Positions 53,718 to 61,697 of a DNA stretch of 64,000 nt are shown in pieces; within the stretch, counting starts at the first letter, position 1; every line of letters starts with the position of its first letter. The notes beneath the pieces were generated by a model that was not told the DNA's origin, made no database searches, and saw only the letters and a list, made by a program, of their open reading frames with translations. This stretch comes from Bacillota bacterium. Its GTDB lineage: Bacteria > Bacillota > Clostridia > Peptostreptococcales > Anaerovoracaceae. The position numbers were made by a program, and so were the translations under genes. The stretch spans positions 1-64,000 of the forward strand of contig JAFWZZ010000013.1 in NCBI GenBank assembly GCA_017522185.1, given 5' to 3'.

Positions 53718-54959
53718 GTGGCTTACAGCGAACTGATCAAGGATTTCAGCAGAATCCGGGACTATATGAGACAATTTTATATTTACGGATTCAGGACGCG
53801 GGATGAATTCGATGATAAGAGCGGACGAAGTTACGACAATGAGCGCCGGAGGCTGGAAAGCTGGCTGGGTGAATACATGTCGTTCCATCAGGATGCTGGG
53901 GGAAAGGTCGTCTTTCTTTCTGTGGACAGCCAGGAGATTTTGCACAATCCGCTGTATCAGGCTTTTAAGGCAAAGAGTTTTACGGCAAACGATATTGTGC
54001 TGCATTTCTATCTGATGGATATATTGGAAGACCATGCTTCGTGTTCTGTAACGGAGATTGTGGAACTGATGGCCGATCAATATGGATCTGTATTCAGCGA
54101 ACCTTTGGAGCTGGACGAGTCAACTATTCGTAAGAAACTGAAAGAGTATGAGCAGATTGGACTTGTCAAATCTGAAAAGCAGGGTCGGAAACTGTTGTTT
54201 TCTAAGACAAAGACAGATGTGGACCTGACGGAGTGGAAGGACGCAATCGATTTTTTCTCCGAACTGGAACCTTTGGGAGTGATCGGGTCCTATATTCTGG
54301 ATCAGACGGATGACAGCCGGTCATTTTTCCATTATAAACATCACTACATTCTTCATGCATTAGAGAGTGAGATTATGTATGTGATGCTGGATTCCATCAG
54401 CAGAGAATGTACCGCACACATCAGACTGTTTAGCAGACGCAAAGGCAAAATGATGGAATATGACATCGTCCCGCTGAAGATTCTGATCAGTACGCAGAAC
54501 GGGCGAAGCTATGTCCTGGGGAAAAACCTTGGTGACGGGAACTATAATCTGTATCGTCTGGACAATATCAAGGAAGCCTCCTGCGGGAATCCGGCAGAGG
54601 ATTGGGAGATGCTTCTCAAGGCAGGAGAAGAGTATCTGAAATATCATTGGAATACGTCGGCAGGCAGAAACGCTGCGCTGGAGCATTTGGAAATGATTCT
54701 GAACATAGAGCCATGGGCCGGTCATATTCTACAGCGTCTCGAGAAAGAAGGGAAGCATGGCAGCGTTGAGCCTCTGGGAAACCACCAGTACAAATATGCT
54801 GTCGATGTTTACGACACGGGAGAAATGCTGCCGTGGATCCGTACCTTCATCGGAAGAATTGTCTCTCTCCGATGTACCAACAAAGTCATAGAAAAGCAGT
54901 TCTATGATGATTTAGAGCAGATGTACGCCATGTATGGAGGTGACGACCATGTTGTTTAG
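53718..54959 (+). CDS. WYL-domain transcriptional regulator 1 (GTG start)
   Basis: 413 aa. GTG 53718 has GGGAGG 7 bases upstream; earlier in-frame starts lie before the promoter. N-terminal DNA-binding region (IVELMADQYGSVF.. DESTIRKKLKEYEQIGLV, winged helix), then a WYL sensor (IVPLKILISTQNGRSYVLGKNL..) and a C-terminal extension. WYL domains sense ligands, including nucleic acids in several RNA-repair and defence loci. It overlaps the second WYL gene by 11 bases. Confidence 0.8.
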   Translation: MAYSELIKDFSRIRDYMRQFYIYGFRTRDEFDDKSGRSYDNERRRLESWLGEYMSFHQDAGGKVVFLSVDSQEILHNPLYQAFKAKSFTANDIVLHFYLMDILEDHASCSVTEIVELMADQYGSVFSEPLELDESTIRKKLKEYEQIGLVKSEKQGRKLLFSKTKTDVDLTEWKDAIDFFSELEPLGVIGSYILDQTDDSRSFFHYKHHYILHALESEIMYVMLDSISRECTAHIRLFSRRKGKMMEYDIVPLKILISTQNGRSYVLGKNLGDGNYNLYRLDNIKEASCGNPAEDWEMLLKAGEEYLKYHWNTSAGRNAALEHLEMILNIEPWAGHILQRLEKEGKHGSVEPLGNHQYKYAVDVYDTGEMLPWIRTFIGRIVSLRCTNKVIEKQFYDDLEQMYAMYGGDDHVV

Positions 54960-55851
54960 TGAAATCTATGGGAACTACTTTCGTACGATGGAGAAAGTTC
55001 TGAAAGAGGCTGTTCAGGGTACACTGACGGAGCAGAAACTGCAGGAAATCGTGGAAAGACAGGGGTTTGAGGAAAGCCGTCTTCATATTCCAAAATCGCT
55101 GAAGACGCAGACCTGGCCACTGATTGATGAAACGTATAACACACCTTTACATCATAAACCGGAAATGGCGCTGACCATTCTGGAGAAGCGGTGGATGAAG
55201 GCTTTGTTAGAAGATCCGAAGATGAAACTTTTTGGCCTTAGCGGCAAAGGGCTAGAGGATGTGGAGCCTTTGTTTAGACGGGATACTATCGTGTATTTTG
55301 ATCAGCAGAGAGGCGGAGACCCTTTTGAGGATGCATCGTACATTCGTCATTTCAGTACAATCCTCCAGGCCTTTCGGGAAAAACGGAAGCTGCGAATTGA
55401 ATTTCTCAGCACATCAAAGGGGATTTTGCATCGATGGGACTGTGTTCCCCACAGGCTGGAGTATTCGCTGAAGGATGACAAATTCCGGCTGATGACACGG
55501 AGAAAGAAATATGTGGACACCATTAACCTTTCCACCATTACGGCGTGCAGCCTGTTAGAACCTTATGATGCGGAGGATGAGAATTTTGAAATCGAAAAAA
55601 AACAGGTCGTTTTGGAGCTGACGGATGAGAGAAATGCGCTGGAACGGATTATGCTCCACTTTTCCCATCTGCAGAAAGAAACCAAACGTCTGGACCGATC
55701 CCGCTACCGCATTCGCTTAACCTACAATCAGCAGGATGAAACGGAAATTCTGATTCGCATTATGAGTTTCGGTCCTATGGTAAAAGTTGTGGAGCCGGAA
55801 TCCTTTGTACAATTGATGAGAGAAAGACTGATAAACCAGAAACAGCTGTAG
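54949..55851 (+). CDS. WYL-domain transcriptional regulator 2
   Basis: 300 aa. ATG 54949 has GGAGG 8 bases upstream (ATG 54934 is in the previous frame's end). Helical N-terminus, WYL-like domain (LRIEFLSTSKGILHRWDCVPHRLEYSLKDDKFRLMTRR), and a WCX-like C-terminus. A partner of regulator 1; together they likely control the ncRNA and DUF2828-rtcB-rlaP genes behind them. Confidence 0.78.
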   Translation: MLFSEIYGNYFRTMEKVLKEAVQGTLTEQKLQEIVERQGFEESRLHIPKSLKTQTWPLIDETYNTPLHHKPEMALTILEKRWMKALLEDPKMKLFGLSGKGLEDVEPLFRRDTIVYFDQQRGGDPFEDASYIRHFSTILQAFREKRKLRIEFLSTSKGILHRWDCVPHRLEYSLKDDKFRLMTRRKKYVDTINLSTITACSLLEPYDAEDENFEIEKKQVVLELTDERNALERIMLHFSHLQKETKRLDRSRYRIRLTYNQQDETEILIRIMSFGPMVKVVEPESFVQLMRERLINQKQL

Positions 55852-55938
55852 TCCGCTGAGGATCACGGCTGTTTTTCTCATTTTTTGTCAGATTTGGAGA
55901 GTTCGCAACTTTTTTTCCAAGATAAACGGGGAAAATGC

Positions 55939-55947
55939 TGGTAATAT
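55939..55947 (+). promoter_or_regulatory. Extended -10 promoter of the tRNA-like RNA / DUF2828 operon
   Basis: TGGTAATAT. Transcription would start near 55954, just before the outer stem AAGGTAC at 55960, which fits an RNA whose 5' end forms that stem. No sigma-54 signature is seen, although rtc operons of other bacteria often use one. Confidence 0.45.
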
Positions 55948-55959
55948 TGGGATAACAGA

Positions 55960-56078
55960 AAGGTACATACAGCAAAGCGTTTGGTACATAGTAGAATGAT
56001 TAGCTTCACAGGGAAGCAGCGTGCTTGTAACACGACCGGCGCAGGTTCAAATCCTGCATCATATCACCAAGGTACCTT
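55960..56078 (+). ncRNA. Y-RNA-like noncoding RNA with a tRNA-Thr(UGU)-like module
   Basis: The module has every arm of a tRNA: ATGAT (55996-56000)/ATCAT (56058-56062); D arm GCTTC/GAAGC with a 5-base loop (56003-56017); anticodon arm with loop CTTGTAA (56024-56030, anticodon TGT); 5-base variable loop; T arm GCAGG-TTCAAAT-CCTGC (56041-56057). The acceptor helix is short and mismatched, so this is not a normal tRNA. Outside it TTGGT (55981-55985)/ACCAA (56066-56070) and AAGGTAC (55960-55966)/GTACCTT (56072-56078) form a long end stem, the plan of bacterial Y RNAs, which pair a Ro-binding stem with a tRNA mimic. It sits just before the DUF2828 start. Confidence 0.7.
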
Positions 56079-56094
56079 GAGGGAGGGAATAGAG

Positions 56095-57564
56095 ATGTTG
56101 AATTATTTAAAAGAAGAAGCAAACAGGACTTTTACCGAATATGGTGCAAGTACAAAGATGACGACTTTTTCAGACAACCTGGATTTGTTCGCTACAATCG
56201 GAGCGTTGAGACACGCTGATAATGAGGAAATCATTGGGCGGTTCCAAAAGGCATTTATTGAGAATCCCGATTTGGCAATGAAGAATCTGTTTTTTGGCAG
56301 AGATATTCGAGGCGGACTTGGGGAGCGTAGAACTTTCAGGGTTTGCATGAAATGGCTGGCGGACCATCATCCCGCATCTGTTGAGAAGAATCTGGAACAG
56401 TTCGGGGAATACGGCAGATATGATGATTTGTTATGTTTGATGGATACGCCATGTAATGAAAGCGTCGTTCGATATATCGGTCAGTGCCTGTCAGATGATG
56501 TGACTTCGATGGAAAGCGGCGGCCCGGTATCGCTGCTGGCAAAATGGCTGCCGTCAGTAAATGCATCTAACCGTGAAACTGTTGGCACGGCTAAAAAGCT
56601 TGCCAAAGCATTGAAAATGAAAGAGCGTGATTACAGGAAGACATTGTGTTCACTGCGGGCTTACATTGAAATCATCGAGAACAACCTGCGTGAAAGAGAC
56701 TATTCTTTTGATTATGAGAAACAGCCTTCCAAGGCATTGTTTAAATACCGGGCAGCTTTCTTGCGTAACGATGAGAAACGGTATCTGTCATATTTGAATG
56801 GGGTAAGTCGTGGGGAAAGAAAGCTGAATGCAGGTACACTAATGCCTTATGACATCATCAGACCGATTACGGAACTTTGGGGAAGGAAGCCTGTTTCCGA
56901 AGAAGAACGACATGTGATGGATGTGACCTGGAAAGCGCAGAAAGACTTTGCAGATGACACGAATGCTTTGGTTGTCATTGACGGGTCCGCTTCTATGTAT
57001 TGCAACAGAAATCCGCAGCCGGCAGCTGTAGCGCTTTCTCTTGGCGTTTACTTTGCCGAAAGGAACAAAGGGGTGTTTCGAAACCATTTTATTACTTTTT
57101 CACATAACCCGAAGCTGGTAGAGGTAAAAGGGCGTGACATCGTTGACAAAGTTAAGTATTGCATGGGGTTTAATGAAATCTCAGACACCAATATACAGAA
57201 AGTTTTTGAGCTGATTCTTCAAACTGCACTGAAGCATAAGGTTCCACAGGAGGAACTGCCAAAGACTGTTTATATCGTTACGGATATGGAATTTAATGCT
57301 TGCGCTAAATATTCAGGCATGACGAACTTTGAGTATGCAAAGCAGTTGTTTTCGGCACATGGATATCAGCTTCCACAGATTGTTTTTTGGAATGTAGACA
57401 GCAGGAACAGACAGCAGCCGGTTACGATGAACGAACAAGGCGTAATCCTTGTTTCCGGATGCTCACCAAGGATTTTCTCCATGGTTATGGATCACAACTA
57501 TAGTCCATATGAGTTTATGATGGAAGTTCTCGGAAGTGAACGTTATGCAGGCATCACGGCATAA
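56095..57564 (+). CDS. DUF2828 protein (TROVE-like N-terminus plus vWA)
   Basis: 489 aa. ATG 56095 has GGGAGG 8 bases upstream; the frame open from 55981 would run through the tRNA-like RNA and is rejected. The N-terminal helical part (residues 1 to about 285, with NLFFGRDIRGGLGERRTFR and similar HEAT-like segments) resembles the RNA-binding TROVE/Ro ring. The C-terminal vWA domain has the MIDAS motif DGSAS (Asp296) and later VTDME. Ro60-like proteins bind Y RNAs and misfolded RNA; the RNA just upstream is the obvious partner. Confidence 0.8.
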   Translation: MLNYLKEEANRTFTEYGASTKMTTFSDNLDLFATIGALRHADNEEIIGRFQKAFIENPDLAMKNLFFGRDIRGGLGERRTFRVCMKWLADHHPASVEKNLEQFGEYGRYDDLLCLMDTPCNESVVRYIGQCLSDDVTSMESGGPVSLLAKWLPSVNASNRETVGTAKKLAKALKMKERDYRKTLCSLRAYIEIIENNLRERDYSFDYEKQPSKALFKYRAAFLRNDEKRYLSYLNGVSRGERKLNAGTLMPYDIIRPITELWGRKPVSEEERHVMDVTWKAQKDFADDTNALVVIDGSASMYCNRNPQPAAVALSLGVYFAERNKGVFRNHFITFSHNPKLVEVKGRDIVDKVKYCMGFNEISDTNIQKVFELILQTALKHKVPQEELPKTVYIVTDMEFNACAKYSGMTNFEYAKQLFSAHGYQLPQIVFWNVDSRNRQQPVTMNEQGVILVSGCSPRIFSMVMDHNYSPYEFMMEVLGSERYAGITA

Positions 57565-57587
57565 CGTGTAATGTACAACTTTATAGA

Positions 57588-57653
57588 AAGGCATTTACAG
57601 CAAATGAAGAGCATACGACTGTTAACCGTAAATAGAGCTAAAGCAAGTGCCTT
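57588..57653 (+). ncRNA. tRNA-Asn-derived segment between DUF2828 and rtcB
   Basis: AGAGC (57608-57612), then an anticodon arm TACGA-CTGTTAA-CCGTA (57614-57630) with anticodon GTT. This matches the D-arm end and anticodon arm of bacterial tRNA-Asn closely, while the acceptor and T arm are not recognisable. AAGGCA (57588-57593) pairs with TGCCTT (57648-57653), which a T run follows, so it may also fold as a weak internal terminator. The first part of a longer open frame (57571) is this sequence, not protein. Confidence 0.45.
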
Positions 57654-57672
57654 GTTTTTAGGAGATAAAACC

Positions 57673-58881
57673 ATGATTAGAGTAGAAGGAAAATATAACG
57701 AAGCATTGTGCTACTGTGCAAGTCTGGACAAAGTGGCAGAAGGACAGATTAAGGCCGTCTGCGACCAGAGCTTTTTTGCAGATAACAAAATTAGAATCAT
57801 GCCGGATGTTCACGCCGGCATGGGTTGTACCATTGGAACAACCATGACCATTACAGACAAAGTTGTGCCTGGTATGGTAGGCGTAGATATCGGCTGCGGC
57901 ATGGAGACAATTAGAATCAGAGAAAAAGAAATTGACTTTGAACAGTTAGACAGAGTGATTCGGGAGGGCATCCCGTCGGGCAGGAATATTCGTAAAACGG
58001 CACATCCATTTCACGAAGAAATCGACCTGGAGGCACTGTGTTGCGGGGAATACGTAAACCTGCACAGAGCCCGCAGAAGCATCGGTACTCTGGGCGGAGG
58101 AAATCATTTTATTGAAGTTAATAAAGATGAAGAGGGTAATCTCTACCTTGTGGTACACTCCGGCAGCCGTCACTTGGGTAACGAAGTAGCAAAGTATTAC
58201 CAGGAAGAAGGCTTCCGCGCGCTTTGCGGCAGTGCACGTTTTCAGATTGAGGATATGATCCGGGAGATGAAAGCCCAGGGACGCAGCAAAGAGATAGAGA
58301 AGCAGTTGAAACAGCTTCGCAAAGCACGTGCACTGGCGACGCCGGTGCCCAAGGATCTGGCCTATGTGGAAGGCAGACTCTTTGATGAATACATCCATGA
58401 CATGAATATCATCCAGAAGTTTGCCATGCTAAATCGTAAGGCCATGGTGGATGTCATTATCAGGGGTATGGGGCTGACCGTGGAGGAGCAGTTTACCACC
58501 ATACATAACTACATCGACATAGAAGAGATGATCCTGCGTAAGGGTGCAATCTCGGCAAAGAAAGGTGAAAAGATTCTGATTCCGATGAATATGAGAGATG
58601 GAAGCCTGATTTGTATGGGCAAGGGCAACGAGGATTGGAACTGTTCTGCGCCACATGGGGCAGGCAGGCTGATGAGCCGAAGGGATGCTTTTGAAACGTT
58701 GTCTGTGGCAGACTATGCGGCCCAGATGGAAGGTATTTATACGACTTGCGTGAGCAGGTCAACTTTGGATGAAGCGCCGATGGCCTACAAGCCGATGGAA
58801 GAAATCAAGGCCCAGATAGAACCGACGGCAGAGATCATCGCGCAGATTAAGCCATTGTATAATTTCAAGGCGTCGGAATAG
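57673..58881 (+). CDS. rtcB: RNA-splicing ligase RtcB
   Basis: 402 aa. AGGAG 8 bases before ATG 57673 fixes the start. Mn/GTP motifs are DVHAGMGCTIG, VGVDIGCGM, GGGNHFIE and HSGSRHLG, and the guanylated His is in PHGAGR. It joins 2',3'-cyclic-phosphate or 3'-phosphate ends to 5'-OH ends, the products of ribonuclease toxins and tRNA cleavage. No RtcA or archease is nearby. It is 13 bases before the RlaP gene. Confidence 0.94.
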   Translation: MIRVEGKYNEALCYCASLDKVAEGQIKAVCDQSFFADNKIRIMPDVHAGMGCTIGTTMTITDKVVPGMVGVDIGCGMETIRIREKEIDFEQLDRVIREGIPSGRNIRKTAHPFHEEIDLEALCCGEYVNLHRARRSIGTLGGGNHFIEVNKDEEGNLYLVVHSGSRHLGNEVAKYYQEEGFRALCGSARFQIEDMIREMKAQGRSKEIEKQLKQLRKARALATPVPKDLAYVEGRLFDEYIHDMNIIQKFAMLNRKAMVDVIIRGMGLTVEEQFTTIHNYIDIEEMILRKGAISAKKGEKILIPMNMRDGSLICMGKGNEDWNCSAPHGAGRLMSRRDAFETLSVADYAAQMEGIYTTCVSRSTLDEAPMAYKPMEEIKAQIEPTAEIIAQIKPLYNFKASE

Positions 58882-58894
58882 GGGTGAAGGAACA

Positions 58895-59644
58895 ATGAAA
58901 GAAATCATTTTGGGAAAATTGCGCGAAATTGAAGAAAAAGAAAAGGTGAAAATCATTTTGGCTGTGGAGTCCGGCAGCCGTGCATGGGGCTTTGCTTCTC
59001 CTGACAGCGACTACGATGTTCGGTTTATCTATGTGCGGCCAAAGGAGGACTATCTGAAGCTGGAACCAGTTCGGGATGTAATTGAATGGCAACTGGATGA
59101 GACGCTGGATATTAACGGCTGGGATTTGAAGAAGACGCTGCAGTTGCTCTATAAAGGCAACTCGACTATTTTTGAGTGGTGTGCATCGCCGGTTGTTTAC
59201 CTCGACACACCAGAGGCGGACGTGCTGCGGGCCTTGCTACCTGTGTATTTCTCGAGCAAGAAGGGGCTGTTTCACTATTGGCACATGGCTGACTCCAACT
59301 ATAGGAGCTATCTGAAGGGAGATATGGTCCGCATCAAAAAATACTTTTATGTTCTGCGACCAATTCTGGCTGCAAAGTGGATTATCGACAGGGAGAGTCC
59401 GCCACCAATGCTGTTTTCAGAGCTGGTAGATGCAGAACTGGAAGCTGACTTGAGGCCGGTGGTAGAGCGCCTTCTGGACATGAAAGTAAGCATGCCGGAA
59501 ACTGAATATGCGCCGAAGGTGCAGGTGCTCAATGATTATATCGAGGAAGGGCTGAAGATAGTGAAGGAAATCGCAGAAGAGGTCGAGGCGGAACCGGTCG
59601 GTTGGGAGAAACTGGACGAGGTGTTTTTGGAGATTGTTGGGTGA
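58895..59644 (+). CDS. RlaP-type nucleotidyltransferase (RNA ligase-associated pol-beta)
   Basis: 249 aa. ESGSRAWGFASPDSDYDVRFIY gives the GS motif (Gly27-Ser28) and the metal DxD (Asp39, Asp41) of the pol-beta superfamily, in the form seen beside RtcB ligases (RlaP). It probably adds a nucleotide to, or otherwise prepares, broken RNA ends. Last gene of the RNA-repair operon. Confidence 0.85.
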   Translation: MKEIILGKLREIEEKEKVKIILAVESGSRAWGFASPDSDYDVRFIYVRPKEDYLKLEPVRDVIEWQLDETLDINGWDLKKTLQLLYKGNSTIFEWCASPVVYLDTPEADVLRALLPVYFSSKKGLFHYWHMADSNYRSYLKGDMVRIKKYFYVLRPILAAKWIIDRESPPPMLFSELVDAELEADLRPVVERLLDMKVSMPETEYAPKVQVLNDYIEEGLKIVKEIAEEVEAEPVGWEKLDEVFLEIVG

Positions 59645-59829: not shown

Positions 59830-59937
59830 ATGTGCAATAGATCAGAATATGACTTTAAGATAATAGGCAGCAACCTTAAGGCTTTGCGTCTGGCAAAGGA
59901 TCTGACGGTTGAAGAGGTAAGGGACTATATAAGGTGA
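59830..59937 (+). pseudogene. XRE-type HTH fragment
   Basis: 35 codons. IIGSNLKALRLAKDLTVEEVRDYI is the first half of an XRE helix-turn-helix. AGGAGG at 59815-59820 and a TTTACC/TATATT promoter-like pair upstream look functional. It ends by GTGA overlap with the Panacea-domain gene, where intact relatives would continue as one protein. Confidence 0.5.
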
Positions 59938-60320
59938 AACTTATGAAGCTGCTTTGGTATGCGGATTCTTTGAGTTATAAACTGCATCAATGTTCTATGT
60001 CCGGCCTGGTATATTCTCATTATGCCATGGGAGCATTGCCGAAAGGACATTATAAGATTTTGGGCCTGAGAAACATCAATGTGAAAGATGAATATGAGAA
60101 TCCGGAAACGGTGAAATATCATATTCTGCCAAGTGATAGTTTTGATGAGAGTGTTTTTTCTGCAGACGAATTGCGGATTCTGAATCGTGTCGTAGATAAA
60201 TTCAAGTACATGAAAGTGACGGAAATCGTTGAATACATGCACCAAGAGACAGCATATGTGGAAACCCAGCCGGATGAGCTGATTTCTTATGAGCTGGCAA
60301 AGGAGATCAGGGCGTTTTAG
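59934..60320 (+). CDS. Panacea/SocA-like (DUF4065) antitoxin-domain protein
   Basis: 128 aa. KLMKLLWYADSLSYKLHQCSMSGLVYSHYAMGALPKGHY is the DUF4065/Panacea core. In other genomes the domain is often preceded by an HTH in the same protein and neutralises a toxin. Here the HTH is a separate 35-codon frame and no toxin gene is seen. It is closed by a strong terminator. Confidence 0.72.
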   Translation: MKLMKLLWYADSLSYKLHQCSMSGLVYSHYAMGALPKGHYKILGLRNINVKDEYENPETVKYHILPSDSFDESVFSADELRILNRVVDKFKYMKVTEIVEYMHQETAYVETQPDELISYELAKEIRAF

Positions 60321-60518: not shown

Positions 60519-61697
60519 ATGGAACGGAACTACACAAGGAAATCAAAAAGTGAAAAGCCTGTATTAGCGATTTGCTATGACTTTGATAAAACACTTACAC
60601 CTACGGATATGCAGGCACAAGGCTATATTCAGTCGCTACAACATGATGTCGTCTCATTTTGGGAGGAATCTAATAAATTGGCAAGGGATAATGATATGGA
60701 TCAAAACCTTGCATATATGTATCTAATGAAGGAGAAAGCTCGAGGGAAGCTGTTGTTTACAAAGAGGACCTTGGAAGAATACGGAGAAAAGGTTGTATTA
60801 TATCCTGGGGTAGATGGGTGGTTTGAAAGAATCAAAGAGTATGGAAGAAATCATAATGTAATTGTGGAGCACTATATTATATCTTCTGGTTTAAAAGAGA
60901 TGATAGAAGCCACAAGTATTGCAAAGAAAGGTGCGTTCGAAAAGGTATATGCAAGCTCTTTCTTCTATAATGAGCACGGAGAAGCACAGTGGCCCGCTCA
61001 GGTTGTTAATTACACAAACAAGACACAATTCCTGTTCCGAATTGAAAAGGGTGTGTTGGATGTAAATGATAACAGTGTTAATGAATATTTTGAGCCTGAA
61101 GATATTAGAGTTCCGTTTCGAAATATGATTTATATTGGTGACAGCGATACAGATGTTCCATGTATGAAGGTCGTTGATTCTTATGGTGGTTATTCCATCG
61201 GCGTGTATGATGAAATAACCAAAAATAAAGCCAAAGTTCATAAGATGATGAAGGACGGCAGGATAAAATATTATGCGGAGTCTGATTATACAGAGGGATC
61301 AGAATTAGACTTGCTAGTGAAAGCAATTATCGACAGAACGGCCACGAATGAAATTCTGGAGTCAAAACACTGTAATAATAAGAAAATGATGACGGCTGCA
61401 GAGTCCCAGCAAGATGAGGATACAAAGGAAAAGGCGGCATTACTAGTCTCTTTGGAGAACAGTAGTTCTTTTGCAAAAACCCATGAGGTTATTAATTCTT
61501 TACGGTTTTGTAAAGATTGGTCAGAAGAAAACAAAGAGAGTCTCTACGGTATAGCATTAAAAAACAGTCAAGTGAGGTATATTTTGACAGACAAAGATGT
61601 AAAATTGTTTTATTTGAGTTTGTTGGAGAAAGAGGAGGTATTGTCCGAAAATGCAAAAAAAGTGAAAGTTTTGCTAGAGAAAAAGCAGAAGAAATAA
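60519..61697 (+). CDS. HAD-superfamily phosphatase-like protein of the defence island
   Basis: 392 aa. The HAD motifs are YDFDKTLTPTD (Asp21, Asp23), IISSGL and IGDSDTDVPCMK. The C-terminal 130 residues are charged helical sequence without a known domain. Base composition is visibly more AT-rich than everything before 60.3 kb. Ribosome site TTAGGAGG. It has its own promoter. Whether it belongs to the Kiwa genes, 112 bases further on, is not known. Confidence 0.78.
   Translation: MERNYTRKSKSEKPVLAICYDFDKTLTPTDMQAQGYIQSLQHDVVSFWEESNKLARDNDMDQNLAYMYLMKEKARGKLLFTKRTLEEYGEKVVLYPGVDGWFERIKEYGRNHNVIVEHYIISSGLKEMIEATSIAKKGAFEKVYASSFFYNEHGEAQWPAQVVNYTNKTQFLFRIEKGVLDVNDNSVNEYFEPEDIRVPFRNMIYIGDSDTDVPCMKVVDSYGGYSIGVYDEITKNKAKVHKMMKDGRIKYYAESDYTEGSELDLLVKAIIDRTATNEILESKHCNNKKMMTAAESQQDEDTKEKAALLVSLENSSSFAKTHEVINSLRFCKDWSEENKESLYGIALKNSQVRYILTDKDVKLFYLSLLEKEEVLSENAKKVKVLLEKKQKK

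Follow-up and report, generated by a model that had tools for sequence, protein, structure and literature searches.

Ro60 proteins accompanied by tRNA-mimicking Y RNAs and adjoining the RNA ligase RtcB are already known, and Chen et al. 2014 reportedly identified probable Y RNAs close to Ro60 in over 250 species of bacteria and phages, with a tRNA-like domain in at least one of the RNAs of each species. According to PMC8394870, the basal stem of YrlA serves Rsr, and its tRNA-like domain, composed of D, T and acceptor arms, binds PNPase; in PMC7790460 Hughes et al. offer a competitive inhibitor of the nuclease as one possible role of this RNA. Here we describe a locus at positions 53718..59644 of a 64,000-nt stretch of Bacillota DNA (assembly GCA_017522185.1, contig JAFWZZ010000013.1; the whole stretch is called the window), whose own genome is 99.1% complete. 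The locus combines a DUF2828 protein with two WYL regulators, RtcB, RlaP and a tRNA-like RNA which, judging by comparison of related sequences, is one case of a repeated family of RNA units with a common handle. The arrangement of five genes in one direction, proposed earlier in a reading made from the sequence alone (the sequence-only reading), was confirmed with Pfam, all of them lying on the + strand.

The locus shares with Salmonella rsr-yrlBA-rtcBA a putative ring-protein relative with a vWA domain, a stem-handled and partly tRNA-like RNA, an adjacent RtcB and a regulator of the stress type. It differs in having DUF2828 for TROVE, an RCAGCRA handle, up to nine diverse units, displayed anticodon arms and WYL proteins for RtcR/sigma-54, and in lacking RtcA. 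The handle RNAs were not found described in the open-licence PMC literature, including the available portions of PMC7790460, PMC7824862, PMC8394870 and PMC11455837. As far as this search reaches, the handle RNA of DUF2828, its arrays of several units, the display and swapping of anticodons and the WYL promoter are new; this novelty is lowered, because the work of Chen et al. 2014 may cover part of the phage RNAs.

A repeated RNA unit with a covarying handle

The unit was first recognised by reading the DNA 5' of DUF2828 in relatives (62 loci), which, with 16 loci from an independent class-wide draw and the window, make up the 79 bacterial loci considered below (cited by L numbers; near-duplicates or kin among them are the related L001/L053 as well as L002/L055, L021/L022, L012/L056 and L044/L098). 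It consists of a 7-bp stem arm (usual arms AAGRYRC or AAAGYRC), two nucleotides, the motif RCAGCRA, a variable insert, the complementary arm and then a G, mostly as GT. The window holds two units, both on the + strand, and the relatives up to nine. Unit 1 (AAGGTAC-AT-ACAGCAA ... GTACCTTG; 55960..56079) precedes the gene of a Ro60-like protein with Pfam domains DUF2828 and DUF7788 (vWA) at 56095..57564 (+), and unit 2 (AAGGCAT-TT-ACAGCAA ... GTGCCTTG; 57588..57654) follows it.

A strict scan of the 79 loci returned 191 units in 72 loci, compared with two on the opposite strand and none in the reversed sequence. This set was selected by full pairing, hence the pairing within it is by construction, and it includes at least three likely false matches (L049 6446, L035 8847 and window 42939). 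As many as 183 of the 191 units are located upstream of DUF2828, six just downstream and two elsewhere, and their spacing is tight (at most 15 nt in 60 of 112 gaps).

Covariation was tested on two sets, both started from the loop motif alone. Among 178 ACAGCAA motifs situated within 2.5 kb upstream of DUF2828, 162 have their own downstream 7-bp partner, as against a mean of 62.5 and a maximum of 79 when the arms were swapped in 200 shuffles. Within 14 named phage and plasmid loci, chosen for variety and differing widely in their arms, a partner with G directly after it was found for 35 of the 52 RCAGCAA motifs that share the strand of DUF2828 (0/16 on the other strand), and swapped arms paired 2.4 times on average and eight times at most. 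The idea that neighbouring units avoid equal stems was rejected, since only a non-significant deficit was seen (6 of 99 pairs vs 9.4 expected, P 0.17, with five near-duplicate loci dropped).

Co-occurrence in related genomes, which the sequence-only reading had suggested counting, is found for the unit (strict form within 4 kb upstream in 70 of the 73 loci having a DUF2828 start and at least 300 nt of upstream sequence), for the WYL pair (34/66) and for RtcB (downstream in 40/69). In the remaining three loci (L049, L050 and L061), variants are visible by eye in which the handle is altered but still pairs or the core is altered; three near-identical tandem units with arms ACGATAC/GTATCGT lie upstream of DUF2828 in L050, contrasting with the usual diverse arrays. 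At the genome level, a length-limited handle pattern was run on 391 genomes of the window's class and matched 16 times, the backward control having none among the matches listed, and 10 of the 11 genomes with this pattern belong to the 18 carrying DUF2828. The exception (G288) is represented by a 3.9-kb contig with units and no DUF2828 on that contig; the three units there (L233 2943-3210, G288 C62) are located near genes that look phage-like by eye, and the last of them has a Leu-UAA-type loop. A similar pattern for shorter inserts had no matches in 199 genomes of the phylum. DUF2828 itself is patchily distributed (18 of 391 genomes, 16 of 222 genera), and neither the single genome of the same genus nor the six of the same family in the 391-genome draw have it. 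What recurs as the core of the locus is the RNA unit together with DUF2828.

In phages of Bacillus, Listeria, Mycobacterium, Campylobacter and E. coli, too, DUF2828 comes with the handle. DUF2828 is present in 674 of 50,697 phage records, and the mycobacteriophage records listed annotate it as 'Ro-like RNA binding protein'. A paired strict core was found in 10 of the 14 named loci, or 11 when a variant core is counted: of those without it (L389, L394, L398 and L399), L389 has two variant-core units, and no units were found in PX29, BF and phi-ST2. Of 78 viral loci, 17 have a strict handle in the 1.5 kb upstream, a number that rises to 49 with a looser motif. Two exact handle patterns run on viral contigs (81 and 75 stretches) gave 165 matches, of which 62 have a same-strand DUF2828 start within 2.5 kb downstream and 31 have one elsewhere on the locus. 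In the phage regions examined, tRNA genes cluster beside DUF2828 in E. coli phage skuden, in Campylobacter phage CP81 and, numbering 17, in Bacillus phage 136.

Inserts that resemble parts of tRNAs

Bacterial inserts more than 90% alike were removed, which left 181, of which 180 were used. Perfect hairpins with a 5-bp stem and a 7-nt loop number 107 in this set vs 11.2 in dinucleotide shuffles (z 22.6), and hairpins with other loop lengths reach a z of 9.5 at most. The YU...R pattern of anticodon loops occurs in 43 of 141 non-T loops (2.4 of 36 in shuffles) and covers 24 different anticodons, and 27 further hairpins are T-arm-like. Identity with one of 42 real anticodon loops was found for 21 of the 141 insert loops, compared with 2 of 519 in the DUF2828 coding sequence, and an 11-mer is shared with a real tRNA by 54 of the 180 inserts (reverse complement 2, reversed 7). 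The same comparison led us to reject mimicry of rRNA (17/180 inserts vs 22 and 16 in controls). Anticodon stem-loops, T-arms, whole tRNAs and circularly permuted tRNAs are all represented among the inserts.

In the window, the tRNA-like RNA of the sequence-only reading is the insert of unit 1 (55994..56065, +), which scores 38.6 bits with the Rfam tRNA model (gathering threshold 29) and has a CTTGTAA loop (UGU, Thr) at 56024-56030 and a T-arm at 56041-56057. It is the lowest-scoring of the 36 Rfam tRNA matches in the genome, ARAGORN called no tRNA genes in the window, and the insert departs from a functional tRNA gene in its acceptor mismatches and in continuing into the handle. The second tRNA-derived segment postulated there likewise exists and corresponds to unit 2, whose anticodon-arm-like hairpin (57614-57630, +; recognised by eye and in the minimum-energy fold) has the Asn-type loop CTGTTAA (GUU) on a 4-bp stem with an A-C mismatch adjoining the loop.

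From one related species to another, corresponding units show other anticodons. By our reading, the whole-tRNA units of 13 loci have a common handle and T-arm and 11 different anticodon-loop strings; in the corresponding Butyrivibrio units the loops read, by eye, as those of Asp-GUC, Tyr-GUA, Pro-UGG and Leu-UAA. In one unit compared between L089 and L090 the flanks and the T-arm are mostly kept and the loop changes from TTTATAT to CTAAAAA, and L001 and L053 differ in loops CTTATCA/CTCATAA and CCGTTAA/CTGTTAA. The proteins of L055 and L056 are truncated, so their identities in the swap comparison are meaningless.

Two refinements of the mimicry were tried and rejected. Loops made uncleavable by a changed U33 are not enriched (10 of 61 one-mismatch loops vs 16 of 120 in shuffles), and mismatches at purine 37 are rare (2.5/61 vs 20.3/120). 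As to stems taken over from the tRNA with the matching anticodon, insert stems agree with it at 7.7 of 14 bases vs 6.6 (maximum 7.4 in 500 draws), a small excess obtained with tRNAs from few genomes and with one mis-framed window row included.

In viruses, 203 loops from 355 distinct inserts were compared, and 45 of them match a real anticodon loop exactly, vs 0.6 of 86 in shuffles (this exact-loop tally is without T-loops, which the viral YU..R tally includes). Among these 45 loops there are 18 of Lys-UUU and 12 of Asn-GUU.

A side observation concerns two Treponema loci (L042 18-124 and L046 4027-4098), in which the inserts have in common a stretch of the 5' half of a tRNA, permuted in one of them.

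WYL regulators, promoter element and RNA repair genes

Two overlapping regulator genes open the window locus. WYL1 (53718..54959, +; GTG start) combines an ArsR-like helix-turn-helix, a weak match, with a WYL domain just above the Pfam cut-off (21.9 vs 21.8 bits). WYL2 (54934..55851, +) matches Pfam WCX and WYL, both below the cut-off, and the WYL model of PADLOC at 1.2e-11. PafBC-type regulators are WYL pairs in tandem, tied to a damage-type response. The tandem arrangement is the same here, and PafBC is the top PDB match of WYL2, at a non-significant E of 0.28.

Among the 66 loci with at least 2.5 kb of upstream sequence there are, besides the WYL pairs, 22 with a single divergent gene and 10 with neither. 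The products of the single genes are relatives of the L004 or L005 WYL proteins; of four scanned, those of L004, L005 and L013 exceed the Pfam WYL cut-off and that of L051 has no WYL match. A WYL-type gene lies upstream in 56 of 66 loci.

In all 35 loci with WYL2 upstream, the consensus TCGCA(A/G)CTTTTTTTCC(G/A)TGATA is present between WYL2 and DUF2828, mostly close behind WYL2; in the window this element (TCGCAACTTTTTTTCC...GATA) occupies 55903..55924 (+). It was also found in 6 of 44 loci without WYL2 in view, which may partly be due to chance, as at up to two mismatches it occurs on the minus strand of 14 of the 79 loci. In 25 of the 31 non-redundant loci (four loci dropped; the promoter-search start of L086 set by hand), the best -10 hexamer has offset 40 relative to the element, and the handle core begins at offset 53-61 in 20 of the 24 loci with a core seen nearby. 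Because of these two distances, transcripts should begin at or just before the first unit. The -10 box of the window, TAATAT (55942..55947, +), was assigned by eye, the script having given offset 38 through a tie. A sigma-70 scan listed no promoter at the element, as would be expected for an activator-dependent promoter. Control different from that of E. coli rtc, as the sequence-only reading had supposed, is supported by the WYL-type genes and by the element. Loci with a single divergent WYL gene have in common, by eye, a second promoter-like stretch, GGGGTTG...TCAATCTGCATCTTTTTATCTCC, upstream of the first unit (L004, L005, L007, L010, L012, L016, L017, L020, L023, L024, L088 and L095).

RtcB of the window (57673..58881, +; Pfam RtcB 1.3e-63) most likely starts at ATG 57673, with AGGAG at 57660, and not at 57571, because unit 2 sits within the 5' part of the 57571 frame. 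Its alignment contains the motifs around Cys, GGNHF, HSGSR and HGAGR, and it is the only RtcB found in its own genome. In the same genome no match was obtained for RtcA (PF01137) or archease, which agrees with their reported absence, and no RtcR gene is present among the Pfam-annotated neighbours, the genome itself not having been searched for RtcR. The gene for the nucleotidyltransferase RlaP (58895..59644, +; Pfam RlaP 8.2e-85) ends the locus; as a partner RlaP is rare, occurring in 4 of 79 loci. Two adjacent RlaP-family genes lie upstream of the divergent WYL gene in L088 (3238-5018).

Possible roles of the displayed inserts

Taken together, these data suggest the following course of events. 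WYL1 and WYL2 would act at the element at 55903-55924, giving a transcript that starts at or just before unit 1. Each unit would fold into the 7-bp handle, whose stem and RCAGCRA strand DUF2828 would grip, and would display an insert often copying a part of a tRNA, i.e., an anticodon stem-loop, a T-arm, the whole fold or a permuted tRNA. The inserts, varying by unit and species, may be bait or competing substrates for tRNA-cleaving nucleases (toxins, anticodon nucleases), and RtcB, plus RlaP where present, would reseal the cut RNA. Phages, in which this protein and this handle often occur close to tRNA genes, may use them inversely, against host nucleases. That the locus encodes a Ro60/Y-RNA-like particle made together with RtcB under WYL control is very probable; with the inserts added as nuclease bait, the chances of the proposal are about even. 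Slightly below this, and thus only tentatively, we would extend it to bacteria and phages in general, which may keep changeable libraries of tRNA-mimic bait on a common DUF2828-held handle, retargeted by anticodon-loop swaps, as an RNA-level repertoire in the conflict over tRNA cleavage, the bacterial side being joined to RtcB repair and WYL control.

The bait reading gains support because anticodon arms are displayed, because their loops are swapped in conserved frames and because Lys-UUU and Asn-GUU are in excess among the viral loops. PrrC is known to cleave tRNA-Lys. According to PMC11455837, PARIS AriB cleaves tRNA-Lys, and T5 tRNA-Lys, likewise a phage RNA of the tRNA type with Lys prominent, acts against PARIS. 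Such phage escape tRNAs replace the cut tRNAs; the units described here, by contrast, are closed by a handle and would hardly be charged.

An alternative is a machine resembling RYPER, in which DUF2828 and the unit RNA would tether an exoribonuclease (e.g., PNPase) and direct it towards RNA that is damaged or structured, with the insert as the docking domain. Besides the precedent of YrlA, some inserts resemble the YrlA arms: among 611 distinct inserts, 27 carry the T-arm signature before that of the D-arm (L038, L247 and L370 1500 being weak members), 17 of these with an intervening acceptor-like hairpin of at least 6 bp, and 28 have the canonical order. In the permuted inserts, the handle occupies the place of the anticodon arm. 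Such docking leaves the display of many anticodons, the loop swaps and the Lys-UUU/Asn-GUU excess unexplained, and we regard it as unlikely, if worth keeping in view. Less probable still are cis sentinels in the mRNA leader, whose cutting by nucleases would alter the stability or translation of the DUF2828-RtcB message: the placement of 183 of 191 strict units upstream of DUF2828 and the first handle directly after the promoter would suit them, but some phage units lie at distances of up to kilobases or where no DUF2828 is seen, and a switch would need no covarying handle of a single type. Functionless decayed tRNA genes or repeats collected at an insertion site are very improbable and were rejected on covariation and strand bias, for although real tRNA genes occur among the units (apparently Ser, Arg and Phe, between or adjoining them in L053 4283-4881 and L001 3812-4216) and near several phage DUF2828 genes, the handles with their fixed motif covary and lie on one strand beside DUF2828 in bacteria and in unrelated phages.

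Several results weigh against the particle with nuclease bait. A T-arm, D-arm or YU...R loop was recognised in only 73 of the 180 bacterial inserts; the other 107 have no clear tRNA feature (46 with another 7-nt-loop hairpin, 61 with nothing recognisable), and the bait idea of the sequence-only reading, strengthened by the swapped anticodons and the viral loops, is weakened on this point. Whole-molecule folding of the window units is not better than that of shuffles (z -1.0 and -0.5); eight other units gave -2.66, -4.25, -3.63, -3.24, -2.52, -2.53, -1.91 and -0.89, five of them below -2.6 or thereabouts. Of the 165 viral handle matches, 72 are without DUF2828 in the available sequence, and when only matches followed by 3 kb or more of sequence are counted, 39 lie near DUF2828, 18 have it elsewhere and 36 show none; some of those without DUF2828 in view adjoin, by eye, stretches resembling tRNA genes. 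RtcB is not downstream in 29 of 69 bacterial loci, and around 80 viral DUF2828 loci no RtcB, RlaP or WYL match was found in the available sequence, which is why the module cannot be called tied to RtcB. The phage Ro-like proteins belong to the same family (PHROG 850) and have handle RNAs alongside, and Listeria phage P100 is an exception as to repair, with an annotated tRNA-splicing ligase five genes downstream of DUF2828.

The homology of DUF2828 and Ro60 is a further weak point, since it rests on one PHROG profile, the direct comparisons being weak. Most of the window protein is matched by PHROG 850 ('RNA-binding protein'; 5e-129), and so is most of a true TROVE protein (7.2e-51). Pfam reported DUF2828 and DUF7788 and no TROVE (PF05731) in the window protein, pairwise BLAST of DUF2828 with a Ro60-type (TROVE) protein gave no match, and hhalign gave a weak one (probability 4.6%, E 0.0088), so that neither these two methods nor a PDB sequence search yielded a firm result. 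The vWA MIDAS residues D296, S298 and S300 are invariant in 44 proteins, with a weak VWA_2 match. As regards the RNA, a basal stem joining the 5' and 3' ends beside a Ro-like gene, a trait of Y RNAs, is present in the units, and a D/T/acceptor domain of the YrlA type in the 27 permuted and 28 canonical inserts but not in most of the others. The pairing of a Ro60-like protein and a tRNA-like RNA at an RtcB locus, proposed by the sequence-only reading, is supported, and what that reading missed is the repeated unit family and its occurrence in phages.

These findings give DUF2828, a large family, a candidate RNA partner, and turn the question of the tRNA-like part of Y RNAs into a direct test of which nuclease and which loop. 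If the bait reading is true, the insert loops would be a record of the tRNAs under attack in gut bacteria and in phages, and the units a layer of defence and counter-defence at tRNA cleavage.

A TROVE gene was found in 1 of 148 genomes of the class. Upstream of this true TROVE gene (L212 600-1000), RNAs with another handle, GTGCAGATTAGAG...CTCTAATCGATTTTCTCCCAA, were seen by eye; these apparently include a permuted tRNA and a Lys-type loop. In the window, the operon is followed by a SocA/Panacea-domain protein of an antitoxin-like family (59934-60320) and then by a HAD-family protein (60519-61697), both identified with Pfam.

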